From Candidatus Rubrimentiphilum sp. (GTDB taxonomy: Bacteria; Vulcanimicrobiota; Vulcanimicrobiia; Vulcanimicrobiales; Vulcanimicrobiaceae), in contig DASTDE010000001.1 of the NCBI GenBank assembly GCA_035710515.1, positions 868,001 through 932,000 of the forward strand: a stretch of 64,000 nucleotides of DNA, read 5' to 3'. Position numbers and translations under genes: made by a program. The notes under the pieces were generated by a model. It was not told the origin of the DNA and did no database searches. It was given only the letters and a program-made list of their open reading frames with translations. Below are positions 25,470-45,599 of this stretch, in pieces; within the stretch, counting starts at the first letter, position 1, and each line of letters opens with the position of its first letter.

Positions 25470-25472
25470 CTG
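25467..25472 (+). promoter_or_regulatory. In-frame UAG-CUG junction between rpmE and prfA
   Basis: TAG (rpmE stop) is followed directly by CTG (25470), both in the frame of rpmE and prfA. No ATG, GTG or TTG occurs in the prfA frame until 25725, which would remove 85 conserved residues. Starting at CTG gives a 357-residue RF1 of normal length. No good Shine-Dalgarno sequence precedes it, so termination-coupled restart or UAG readthrough are the options. Confidence 0.6.
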
Positions 25473-26543
25473 AACCTCTCAGACCGTCTGGATGCGATCG
25501 CCAATCGCTTCGACGAGATCGAGGGCGAGCTCGCACACCCTTCGCAGACGTTCGACCAAGCGCGCTTTACCGCGCTGGTAAAGGAGCGCGCCGCGCTCGA
25601 GGAGACCGTCGAGGCGTATCGCGCGTATCGCAAGATTCTCGAAGAGATCGCCGCCAACGACGCGCTGACCAAAGACCGCAGCGATCCGGAGCTGGCGCAG
25701 CTGGCCGAAGAAGAAGTCAAAGGCTTGCGCGAGCGCGGCAAAGAGCTGGAAGACCGGCTTGCGCTGCTGCTTATCCCAAAAGACCCTGACGACGACAAGG
25801 ACGTCTTCATCGAGATCCGCGGCGGCGCGGGCGGCGACGAAGCGGCGATCTTTGCGGGCGATCTTGCGCGCATGTATATGCGCTATGCTGAATCGCTCGG
25901 CATGCGAGTCGAACTCGTCTCGCAGAGCGAGAGCGATGCAGGCGGATTCAAGGAAATCGTCTTCGCGGTAAAAGGCAACTCGCCGTACCGGTACTTCAAA
26001 CACGAGTCCGGCGTGCACCGCGTGCAGCGCGTACCTTTGACGGAATCGCAAGGCCGCGTGCATACGAGCACGGCGACCGTCGCGGTGTTGCCGCAGGTGG
26101 ACAACGACTTCCAGGTTGAGATCAAGCCATCCGACCTGCAGATCGACACGTACAAATCGAGCGGAGCCGGCGGCCAGTACGTCAACAAAACCGAGTCGGC
26201 AATTCGCATCACGCACGTCCCGACGGGGCTCGTCGTCGCCTCACAGCAAGAACGTTCGCAGATTCAGAACCGCGAAAAGGCGATGCAGATGCTGCGCGCC
26301 CGGCTTTACGATCTGAAGAGGCGCGAGGCGGAAGAAGCGGTGGGCTCGATGCGGCGCAGTCAGGTGGGCACCGGCGACCGCTCCGAAAAGATTCGCACGT
26401 ACAACTACGCGCAAGACCGCGTCACCGACCATCGCATCAACCAAAACTTCGGAAACCTGCGCGGCATAATGGACGGCGACATGGGCCACATCGTTGACGA
26501 ACTCATCAAAGATGAACACACGCGAGCGCTGGCCGGAGCCTGA
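25470..26543 (+). CDS. prfA: Peptide chain release factor 1
   Basis: A 357-residue RF1 that releases peptides at UAA and UAG. The N-terminal coiled domain begins NLSDRLDAIANRFDEIEGEL; the domain-2 core has IEIRGGAGGDEAAIF; the codon-reading tripeptide region is RVPLTESQGRVHTS (PLT where PAT or PVT is usual); the catalytic loop is SGAGGQYVNKTESAIRI. C-terminal helices follow. The start at CTG is assigned because the TTG at 25725 would delete domain 1, and the protein length from CTG equals that of other RF1 proteins. It follows the rpmE stop with no gap and overlaps prmC, which methylates its GGQ glutamine. Confidence 0.9.
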   Translation: MNLSDRLDAIANRFDEIEGELAHPSQTFDQARFTALVKERAALEETVEAYRAYRKILEEIAANDALTKDRSDPELAQLAEEEVKGLRERGKELEDRLALLLIPKDPDDDKDVFIEIRGGAGGDEAAIFAGDLARMYMRYAESLGMRVELVSQSESDAGGFKEIVFAVKGNSPYRYFKHESGVHRVQRVPLTESQGRVHTSTATVAVLPQVDNDFQVEIKPSDLQIDTYKSSGAGGQYVNKTESAIRITHVPTGLVVASQQERSQIQNREKAMQMLRARLYDLKRREAEEAVGSMRRSQVGTGDRSEKIRTYNYAQDRVTDHRINQNFGNLRGIMDGDMGHIVDELIKDEHTRALAGA

Positions 26544-27294: not shown

Positions 27295-29674
<2,380 letters not shown>

Positions 29675-29678
<4 letters not shown>

Positions 29679-37794: not shown

Positions 37795-37992
37795 ATGGCG
37801 CGGCACCGGCCCCAGCCCCCGTTCGCGCCGCAGGAGCCTCAAACGGCTCCCCGGCGCGGAGCTTTGGACGGGCTGTTCGAAGATGGGAACAGTCTATTAC
37901 GAGCCGTTATCGCGGCTGAGGTACTGGGACCGCCACGGGCGCTGAGGGAGCACGAACTCTGGAGTCAACGACCGAAAGAACCGTCGACCTAA
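37795..37992 (+). CDS. Small hypothetical protein between floA and phoH
   Basis: A 65-residue reading frame, Pro-rich at the start (PQPPFAPQEPQTAPRR), then GLFEDGNSLLRAVIAAEVLGPPRAL and REHELWSQRPKEPST. The AEVLGPPRALR stretch looks like a conserved short helix-turn rather than random sequence, and the frame fills the space exactly, starting one base after floA and overlapping phoH by 34 bases. There is no strong ribosome-binding site (AATAGG just before ATG). I do not recognise a family; real but unproven. Confidence 0.5.
   Translation: MARHRPQPPFAPQEPQTAPRRGALDGLFEDGNSLLRAVIAAEVLGPPRALREHELWSQRPKEPST
37944..37961 (+). promoter_or_regulatory. Ribosome-binding site and CTG start of phoH
   Basis: GAGGGAG (37944-37950), eight bases, then CTG (37959-37961). 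No ATG, GTG or TTG occurs in the phoH frame before the GTG at 38100, which would remove 47 residues of the conserved N-terminal domain. Confidence 0.6.
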
Positions 37993-38918
37993 GCGAACTC
38001 GCCGATCAATTCCGGCTGTTCGGAAAATTCGATCAAAATCTATCCGCTCTCGAAGACGCGCTCTCAGTTTCGCTGCGAGTCGATGGCCACAGCCTTGTCG
38101 TGCACGGCGAAAGCGCCGCAGTCGATCAAGCTTACGACGTGGTGAAGCGCATGCTCGACGCGGCGGTTCGCGGTGCGCAACTCACGCCCGACGACGTCGC
38201 GCTGGCAGCGTCCGACGTCTTGCGTGGCGGCGGCGAAGAGCCGGCGCTTCCCGACACCCTGTTCCGATCGAATCGCGGACGCGAGATTCGTCCGAAGACG
38301 CCGGGACAACGCGCGTTCGTCGAGTCGATCGAAAACAACACGCTGACGTTCGGCATCGGTCCCGCCGGCACGGGCAAGACGTTCTTGGCGGTCGTCATGG
38401 CGGTGCGCGCCCTGCGCGCGCGTCAGGTTGCACGCGTCATCTTGTCGCGACCCGCCGTCGAGGCGGGAGAAAAACTCGGTTTCCTGCCCGGCGACATGAA
38501 AGAGAAAGTCGATCCGTATTTGCGCCCCCTCTACGATGCGCTTTCCGAACTAATGGACGATCCGCTGGTGACGCGTTATCTGGAGCGTGGAGTTATCGAG
38601 GTGGCGCCGCTCGCGTACATGCGCGGGCGCACGCTTTCGGAGGCATTCGTCATTCTCGACGAAGCGCAAAACACGACCCGCGATCAATTGAAGATGTTTC
38701 TTACGCGCCTGGGTGCGGGTTCGAAGATGATCGTCAACGGCGACGTCACGCAAATCGATCTGCCCGGCGGCGCGCAGAGCGGGCTGCTCGAGGCGCCGCG
38801 GCGTTTCGGCGGCATGCCCGACATCGGCATCGTCGAGTTAACCGATACGGACGTGGTCCGGCATCCGCTTGTCACGCAGATCATTCGCGCCTACGCCGCC
38901 GATCGCGGAATGCGGTGA
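37959..38918 (+). CDS. phoH: PhoH-like ATPase
   Basis: A 319-residue PhoH/YbeZ-type P-loop ATPase, the same length as the Bacillus protein when begun at CTG 37959. The N-terminal domain starts ESTTERTVDLSELADQFRLF with FDQNLSALEDALSVSLRVDG; the Walker A is GIGPAGTGKTFLAVV, the sensor region LSRPAVEAGEKLGFLPGDM and the Walker B VILDEAQNTTRDQLKMFL. Strong GAGGGAG eight bases before CTG supports that start; GTG 38100 would truncate the N-terminal domain. PhoH and YbeY act together in RNA maturation, and ybeY follows with a GTGA overlap. Confidence 0.92.
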   Translation: MESTTERTVDLSELADQFRLFGKFDQNLSALEDALSVSLRVDGHSLVVHGESAAVDQAYDVVKRMLDAAVRGAQLTPDDVALAASDVLRGGGEEPALPDTLFRSNRGREIRPKTPGQRAFVESIENNTLTFGIGPAGTGKTFLAVVMAVRALRARQVARVILSRPAVEAGEKLGFLPGDMKEKVDPYLRPLYDALSELMDDPLVTRYLERGVIEVAPLAYMRGRTLSEAFVILDEAQNTTRDQLKMFLTRLGAGSKMIVNGDVTQIDLPGGAQSGLLEAPRRFGGMPDIGIVELTDTDVVRHPLVTQIIRAYAADRGMR

Positions 38919-44172: not shown

Positions 44173-44460
44173 ATGTCGACCGACGGGGAATCCGGACAAC
44201 CGCAACGCGATCTGGAACTGCGCGACGTTCTCGTCATAAAGACGACGGGCGAGGACAAGCAGCTGGAGTTCGAGGTCGTCGGGCTCGTCGAGGATGAAGA
44301 GCACAACTCATTCGCCGTACTCTACTGCGAATCGGCCGACGAGTTTGTCGTGACCGACGCGCAAGGCAATCTGTTGCAAGACGAAGAGCTGGCGCAAGAG
44401 ATCCTGGACGACTTCTTCGTTTTGGCCGAAGAGTCGGGCGATAAGGGAGGCGCCGGCTAA
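44173..44460 (+). CDS. DUF1292-family (YrzB-like) acidic protein
   Basis: A 95-residue acidic cytoplasmic protein with the DUF1292 core VLVIKTTGEDKQLEFEVVGLVED, EHNSFAVLYCESADEFVV, and a final acidic helix (EELAQEILDDFFVLAEE). Found next to ruvX and mltG in many Firmicutes-related genomes; function unknown. Its TAA overlaps the ATC proposed as the start of the next gene, and its last codons hold the GGGAGG ribosome-binding site for that gene. Confidence 0.85.
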   Translation: MSTDGESGQPQRDLELRDVLVIKTTGEDKQLEFEVVGLVEDEEHNSFAVLYCESADEFVVTDAQGNLLQDEELAQEILDDFFVLAEESGDKGGAG

Positions 44461-44462
44461 TC
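44445..44462 (+). promoter_or_regulatory. Ribosome-binding site and ATC start of the MurG-like gene
   Basis: GGGAGG (44445-44450), nine bases, then ATC (44460-44462) overlapping the preceding TAA (TAATC). In this frame the first canonical codon is GTG 44493, which would delete the first beta-strand (IRALFLSANVG) of the glycosyltransferase fold. The frame is closed by TAA at 44442. Confidence 0.6.
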
Positions 44463-45599
44463 CGCGCGCTCTTTCTCTCTGCCAACGTCGGCGTGGGACA
44501 CATGGCGGCGGCTTCCGCTCTGCGCACCGAGCTGGCGCGCGAAGATCCTCACTTCGAATCGACCGTCGTCGACTCGTACAAGTACGCGGCCTCGGTTGTA
44601 TCGCGCGTGGTCTCGGACGGATACATCGGCATGGTCAAGACCATTCCGCAGATGTACCGCTTCCTGTACAATCGCGCGGAGCGCGCGACCGAAGTAGGGC
44701 CGTTTCGCACTTGGATCCACCAATTTACCGCCGGCAATCTTCGGCCGCTGCTGCAAGAGTTTCGGCCGGACGTCGTGATTTGCACGCACGCATTTCCCTG
44801 CGGCGTGATGGCGGAGTATAAGAAACAGTTCGGCGACGCTCCGCCTGTGGTCGGCATCGTCACGGATTTCGCCGTACACAGTTTTTGGATGCACGACAAC
44901 ATCGAGCGCTACGCTGTGGCAACCGATGAAATGCGCACCGCCATGGTCGAGCGCGGAATTCGGCCCGAACGCATCGTCGTGTCGGGCATTCCGGTAAACA
45001 CCGCCTTCGGAGCGCTGCCGGCGGACGTCGGCGCGCTGCGCGCAACGTTGGATTTACCGCGCGACCGGCACATCGTGCTAATGATGGGCGGCGGCCTGGG
45101 CATCGGCCCGCTTGCCACGATGATGCAATCGCTAAACGCGGTGGAGTCGCCGATGTGCGTGGTGGCGATCGTCGGGCGCAGCAACCATTCGGCGGAACGC
45201 GTGCTCGAAGCGGCACACGACGTTCGCTATCCGGTTCGCATCTTAGGCTTCGTCGGGAACGTGAACGACTACATGCACGCGAGCGATGTCTTGATTAGCA
45301 AACCCGGCGGCCTCACCTCGGCTGAAGCACTCGCGGCGGAGATTCCGCTGGTGCTGTTCAAGCCGCTGCCGGGCCAGGAGGAACGCAACACGCGTTATCT
45401 TGTCGAACGGCGCGCGGCGGTACGCGCAAAATCAGCTAAACACCTAACGCGCACAATCGCTACGCTTTTGCAATCCGAAAGCAAGCGCGCTGACATGAGA
45501 GCAGCCATGAAAGGGCTCGCCAAGCCGGACGCCGCGGCGCAGGTGGCAGGCGTCATCCGAGATCTTGCCGCAGAGTCCGGACAGGAGGCGATCGCATGA
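44460..45599 (+). CDS. MGDG-synthase/MurG-like glycosyltransferase
   Basis: A 379-residue GT28-type enzyme. The N-terminal MGDG-synthase domain starts IRALFLSANVGVGHMAAASALRTEL and includes RPDVVICTHAFPCGVMAEY; the donor domain has RHIVLMMGGGLGIGPLATMM, ILGFVGNVNDYMHASDVLISKPGGLTSAEALAAEIPLVLF, the UDP-sugar site. Such enzymes add glucose or galactose to diacylglycerol or related lipids at the inner face of the membrane. The ATC start is chosen because GTG 44493 removes a conserved strand and GGGAGG lies nine bases upstream of ATC. It overlaps the DoxX gene by ATGA. Confidence 0.86.
   Translation: MRALFLSANVGVGHMAAASALRTELAREDPHFESTVVDSYKYAASVVSRVVSDGYIGMVKTIPQMYRFLYNRAERATEVGPFRTWIHQFTAGNLRPLLQEFRPDVVICTHAFPCGVMAEYKKQFGDAPPVVGIVTDFAVHSFWMHDNIERYAVATDEMRTAMVERGIRPERIVVSGIPVNTAFGALPADVGALRATLDLPRDRHIVLMMGGGLGIGPLATMMQSLNAVESPMCVVAIVGRSNHSAERVLEAAHDVRYPVRILGFVGNVNDYMHASDVLISKPGGLTSAEALAAEIPLVLFKPLPGQEERNTRYLVERRAAVRAKSAKHLTRTIATLLQSESKRADMRAAMKGLAKPDAAAQVAGVIRDLAAESGQEAIA

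Follow-up and report, generated by a model that had tools for sequence, protein, structure and literature searches.

In the soil bacterium Candidatus Rubrimentiphilum sp., translation of a glycosyltransferase gene probably begins at a near-cognate codon. The likeliest one is AUC 44460, whose A is also the last base of the UAA stop of the preceding gene. The glycosyltransferase gene is located in the window (the whole stretch of DNA that was analysed, 64,000 nucleotides, G000:C1:868001-932000), and the genome of the window, G000, is the reference in the comparisons with congeners. Judged by sequence comparison, it is a deeply conserved near-cognate-start gene whose start codon is fused to the upstream stop, a putative addition to a small class. 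It displays three properties of such genes: a usable canonical start is missing, the arrangement is kept in relatives, and the Shine-Dalgarno sequence is strong. The near-cognate start appears to be kept in this one gene over much of the family, and the sister family mostly carries AUA at the junction.

Organization of the junction

The stop codon of the upstream open reading frame, TAA 44458-44460, has its last A in common with ATC 44460-44462. Stop and start share bases in this TAATC overlap, as they do in termination-reinitiation pairs. Ahead of the first β-strand, ATG, GTG, and TTG are absent from the glycosyltransferase frame, which is closed by TAA 44442 and is left with only the codons GGG, AGG, CGC, CGG, CTA, and ATC. 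The GGGAGG element lies nine bases ahead of ATC, and the 16S 3′ end of G000 contains GGATCACCTCCTTTCT. The first canonical codon in frame, GTG 44493, is found within the GxGH motif and past the strand IRALFLSANVG, so that a start at this position would delete the first strand; the next one is ATG 44502. An earlier note on this DNA had described the overlap, the spacing, the closed frame, and the loss of the strand in the same way, and its placement of the start at ATC is supported by the comparison with relatives, with the adjoining CTA 44457 as the alternative.

Table 1. Features of the window discussed in the text
Feature	Position	Strand	Remark
prfA-like gene	25470..26543	+	CTG directly past in-frame stop; second near-cognate example
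Family-2 glycosyltransferase	28935..29678	+	probable ATT start
phoH-like gene (Pfam)	37959..38918	+	probable CTG start
Upstream gene, 95 aa	44173..44460	+	ATG start; TAA stop overlaps next start
TAA closing the glycosyltransferase frame	44442..44444	+	
Shine-Dalgarno-like GGGAGG	44445..44450	+	
CTA, alternative initiating codon	44457..44459	+	four-base overlap form
ATC, proposed near-cognate start	44460..44462	+	
Glycosyltransferase, MGDG-synthase/UgtP-like, GT28 type	44460..45599	+	PF06925 and PF04101 above cut-offs
GTG, first canonical codon of the glycosyltransferase frame	44493..44495	+	not kept in relatives

Identity of the two genes

The glycosyltransferase contains an MGDG_synth domain (PF06925, 122.4 bits against a cut-off of 25) and a Glyco_tran_28_C domain (PF04101, 34.9 against 22). 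The UgtP equivalog NF010135 (diglucosyl diacylglycerol synthase) scores 257.8 and stays below its cut-off of 500, as does the MurG equivalog TIGR01133 with 61.1 against 250.25 and a match that is confined to residues 174-370. Because the MGDG_synth domain is present and both equivalog cut-offs are missed, the protein is named MGDG-synthase/UgtP-like. This name refines the earlier designation as a MurG-like glycosyltransferase.

The upstream protein matches no Pfam family at E ≤ 1; we take it to resemble DUF1292. The start of its gene was tried as a clean control for the junction and failed, as a canonical codon near the expected start is missing in 18 of the 76 family members read and in 2 of 3 members of family f2 (0 of 12 in the sister family f3). 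Poor alignment probably accounts for two of the 18 (L108, L114), and in some others the frame is open further upstream and contains a canonical codon there. In one subclade (L022, L024, L026, L028, L046, L064, L066, L068, L117, L120, and L121) the DUF1292-like gene itself seems to start with ATC; no canonical codon is near, and the first one lies 13-59 codons inside. A congener's gene was also sought among plasmids, where no match was found.

Conservation in the genus, the family, and beyond

In the seven members of the genus, the codon at the position of ATC 44460 is ATC (three), ATT (two), or GTT (two), and it is canonical in none of them; the six congeners compared come from separate records. 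An orthologue was detected in 76 of the 99 family genomes, and the junction of each was read. The range considered for canonical codons reaches 90 nt upstream (or to the nearest in-frame stop) and ends two codons before a conserved Leu. ATG, GTG, and TTG are all absent from this range in 53 of the 76; among these, a stop closes the frame within some 90 nt in 28, and the frame is open in 25. The remaining 23 have a canonical codon somewhere in the range, one of them, the doubtful L029, solely through an ATG 39 nt upstream. In 44 of the 76 orthologues, the last base of the upstream stop is also the first base of the codon at the place of ATC 44460. This codon is ATT in 24, ATC in 11, GTT in three, ATG in three, and GTG, GCC, and GGC in one each. 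Several genomes of one clade (L056, L116, L117, and L119-L121) have a short repeat-like sequence (about CCTGAGCTTGTCGAAGG) past the upstream stop and ahead of the glycosyltransferase; it provides TTG or ATG in most of them.

A tree of the glycosyltransferases, which includes 94 of the 95 read (one fragment was omitted) and was built with a quick method that leaves many branches weak, requires 14 transitions between the absence and the presence of a canonical codon, against an average of 28 for shuffled labels. One clade of 53 comprises 42 members without and 11 with a canonical codon. As these 11 fall into several small groups, it seems that a canonical codon was regained more than once.

In the sister family f3, of which 12 of 14 genomes were read, the corresponding codon is ATA in ten, ATC in one, and GTG in one, and is followed by an Ala-Leu-Gln-like stretch. 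At these junctions (L048-L053, L055, L057-L061) the ATA forms overlap the stop as ATAG or ATAA or stand directly past it. Additional GTG or ATG codons occur further down the variable N-terminus in 6 of the 12, where a canonical start is therefore possible. The in-frame stops in five f3 orthologues proved to be the normal ends of these genes. GTG or ATG is found in all three f2 genomes and in all four more distant phylum members read, and the paralogue of the glycosyltransferase in G000 has TTG.

Alternative readings of the junction

The initiating codon may lie one position earlier, at CTA 44457, with a four-base stop overlap and the isoleucine as residue 2. Such a start would still be near-cognate, and it is regarded as unlikely, although a number of observations agree with it. 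At the place of CTA, relatives have CTG, GTA, ATA, or TTA. ATG or GTG stands at the earlier codon and is followed by ATT or ATC in L043, L045, and L115; in L014, L024, L044, and L046 the earlier codon is CTG or ATA and the next one is no near-cognate. The GCC and GGC at the codon in the pair L015/L062 cannot be near-cognate starts, so that initiation there would require the GTA just before. The spacing of the Shine-Dalgarno sequence is also no less suitable for the preceding codon (-12) than for ATC, and across the overlap junctions with a match it fits the earlier codon better (4-7 nt in 27 of 38). Against this stand three relatives (L023, L039, L108) in which an in-frame stop directly precedes ATC or ATT and the earlier codon cannot serve. 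Moreover, wherever a TAA stop is combined with an earlier CTA, GTA, or TTA in the set of 44, the next codon is ATT or ATC without exception, and the substitutes ATG (three) and GTG (one) occupy exactly the codon of ATC. Because of these stops and substitutes, ATC is clearly favoured over CTA as the start codon of the window.

The other explanations carry very little weight. A sequencing or assembly error could have turned ATG into ATC, as the usual one-base overlap form, TAATG, differs from TAATC by one base. The start codons of the orthologues, which the earlier note had proposed to compare, answer this: since a canonical codon is absent from 7 of 7 genomes of the genus and from 53 of 76 orthologues in the family, ATC is not a base error. 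The G that the note had envisaged at 44462 has no counterpart in the six congeners, which have ATC, ATT, or GTT, and ATT and ATC prevail in the family. The lack of a canonical codon looks like real biology, and the chance of a sequencing slip is negligible. Just as small is the chance that translation begins at GTG 44493 or ATG 44502, the first canonical codons in frame, and yields a protein without the first strand. The earlier note had named a stable GTG 44493 form as a finding that would speak against the ATC start, and the comparison does not support one: GTG is replaced by GTC or GTT in all six congeners, and a GTG start would be private to G000. Summed over the six congeners, the differences from G000 in codons 2-14 amount to 33 synonymous and 0 non-synonymous ones, from which it is concluded that the segment ahead of GTG 44493 is translated. 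In the longer translation, the match to the MGDG-synthase/UgtP model also begins as early as residue 7. If the two genes were joined by programmed frameshifting or stop readthrough, coding sequence upstream of the first canonical codon would likewise result, and among the hits of the strict test described below is a prfB-like gene of G084, where the known RF2 frameshift is the presumed cause. Relative to the glycosyltransferase, however, the upstream stop is in frame 1 in 63 of 76 orthologues, in frame 0 in eight, and in frame 2 in five (four of which are >30 nt off). As the stop occurs in several frames, no single recoding event would suffice, and relatives have ATG or GTG in place of the codon; recoding is accordingly held to be very improbable.

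Proposed initiation mechanism

A Shine-Dalgarno match of at least four contiguous bases is present at 38 of the 44 overlap junctions versus 45 of 109 ordinary starts of G000 (p=2.6e-7, relatedness ignored). In the proposed mechanism, the ribosome that finishes the upstream gene terminates at UAA and would be kept near the junction by the Shine-Dalgarno sequence inside the end of that gene. It may then restart on the overlapping AUC by termination-reinitiation, with fMet being placed at AUC or AUU. The weak codon would keep the membrane-lipid enzyme at a low level that is tied to the upstream gene and perhaps also to IF3. By sequence, the IF3 of this genome is ordinary, the anti-Shine-Dalgarno of G000 is normal, and one initiator-type tRNA with the anticodon CAT was found by pattern search. 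With all three being ordinary, no altered component emerges that would explain the trait.

Other probable near-cognate starts in the genus

The genus seems to use near-cognate starts unusually often, as far as the comparison of its genomes indicates. In all seven members of the genus, the prfA-like gene has CTG directly past an in-frame stop. Of 59 genomes with a match, 30 were read, and the 23 of these outside the genus all have a canonical codon nearby. The prfA-like gene of G056 has no canonical codon within 40 codons upstream and three downstream of the conserved start, and a CTG there aligns close to a TTG of G110. The phoH-like gene probably begins with CTG GAG TCA ACG ACC, which is identical in five congeners and is preceded by GAGGGAG, a Shine-Dalgarno-like element; canonical codons are absent from the vicinity. 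The probable ATT start of the family-2 glycosyltransferase is likewise kept in five congeners. The infC gene of G000 (L125 1252-1821) starts with ATA and has no ATG, GTG, or TTG back to an in-frame stop; a near-cognate start is the usual habit of infC. In the Tgt-like gene of G006 (named by recognition), ACG is found where G000 and G002 have ATG, and the frame is closed 12 codons upstream.

The further cases in the genus are mostly close to an upstream stop. Seven of nine near-cognate genes, hand-picked and with upstream genes taken from the compared set, start -15 to +12 nt from it, versus 41 of 109 canonical ones (p=0.03). At the ispG-, MFS-, HAD-, and PBP-like genes, start and stop overlap as CTGA. 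In the Sinorhizobium control, wherever the codon at an overlap junction is non-canonical, a canonical one lies in the range of -10 to +4 codons.

The strict test requires synonymous change upstream of the most upstream ATG, GTG, or TTG of an open reading frame. It was devised after the candidates of G000 and G006 were known, so its p values cannot be taken as if the test had been planned in advance. In G000, 8 of 180 genes are hits, whereas the two Sinorhizobium plasmids give 0 of 135 each (8/180 versus 0/135, p=0.012). They include the present glycosyltransferase and the phoH-like gene; the others, recognised by sequence, are ispG-, priA-, pyrC-, RsmE-, PEP-carboxykinase-, and MFS-like. The ispG-like start is CTG in G000, TTG in G006, and ATG in G001. 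The prfA-like gene fails the non-synonymous limit, is outside the eight, and was counted from the separate comparison of prfA-like genes. G006 gives five hits, one of which, a cut open reading frame, was set aside; the prfB-like hit of G084 was set aside as well. A second Eremiobacterial genus pair gives 1 of 95 in G056, which is the same glycosyltransferase, and 0 of 95 in G110. By this test the second pair does not show a genome-wide trait but only this glycosyltransferase, and the difference between 8/180 and 1/95 is not significant (p=0.17). G000 against G056 gives 0 of 24, and the f3 pairs are too small for the test, with 11, 3, and 6 genes. An earlier strict filter had given 7/180, 0/95, and 0/27. 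The first background scans of G000 against G006 were discarded, as they returned many false candidates from conserved DNA before real starts and from shadow open reading frames. When genes were counted more loosely, by the lack of a canonical codon between -40 and +8, there were 9 of 180 for G000/G006 but also 7 of 135 for Sinorhizobium, and this count is not used as evidence; by eye, the seven Sinorhizobium cases are boundary errors or shadow open reading frames.

Implications

A relaxed start rule after termination in the Eremiobacteria, or in some of their genera, can be suggested tentatively, and is somewhat less probable than its opposite. AUU, AUC, AUA, and CUG would then be accepted (as UAAUY, AUAG, and CUGA), a few percent of conserved genes would be affected, and gene callers would misplace their starts. 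If this is right, start selection can be loosened at coupled junctions across a whole lineage, standard gene callers cut or misplace genes that lack ATG, GTG, or TTG starts, and the annotation of the phylum loses N-termini. A cultured member of the phylum is available in Vulcanimicrobium alpinum (PMC9758169). In a survey of 36 genome triplets with 61,358 ancestral AUG starts, two switches to CUG and one to AUU were reconstructed (PMC5622118); the survey probably leans on annotated starts. Within the limited literature collection searched, nothing was found on start codons in this phylum or on a bacterial lineage with frequent CUG or AUU starts.

Comparison with known systems

Termination-reinitiation pairs (ATGA, TGATG, TAATG) consist of co-directional genes with a stop/start overlap and a Shine-Dalgarno sequence within the upstream gene (PMC6728339, PMC12548453). 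The junction described here shares all of these properties, with the difference being that the described pairs use NTG starts. In their accessible text, PMC12548453 does not contain the terms non-AUG, AUU, or noncanonical, and PMC6728339 does not contain non-AUG.

Near-cognate starts are known from infC, which encodes IF3 and starts with AUU in E. coli, AUC in Streptomyces, and AUA in S. aureus (PMC5472188, PMC13009471). The glycosyltransferase resembles infC in the conservation of such a start, and the infC of G000 itself has ATA. Unlike infC, which autoregulates, it is a lipid glycosyltransferase with a codon that is fused to the upstream stop. In Streptomyces, the GTC start of sigR is kept in 32 of 34 relatives, and the other two have GTT; repression of GTC-started sigR by IF3 was measured (PMC5472188). 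The start of the glycosyltransferase is similarly kept across relatives, but its codons are mostly ATT or ATC, and repression by IF3 would here be a presumed counterpart of the measured one.

In S. aureus, cvfC1 (AUU) and ccpN (AUA) combine conserved near-cognate starts with an extended Shine-Dalgarno sequence and a lower yield (PMC13009471). In the accessible part of that source, cvfC1 is the first gene in its operon, and a stop overlap is not mentioned for either gene. The glycosyltransferase shares with cvfC1 and ccpN the conserved near-cognate start and the strong Shine-Dalgarno sequence, and by analogy its yield may be low as well.
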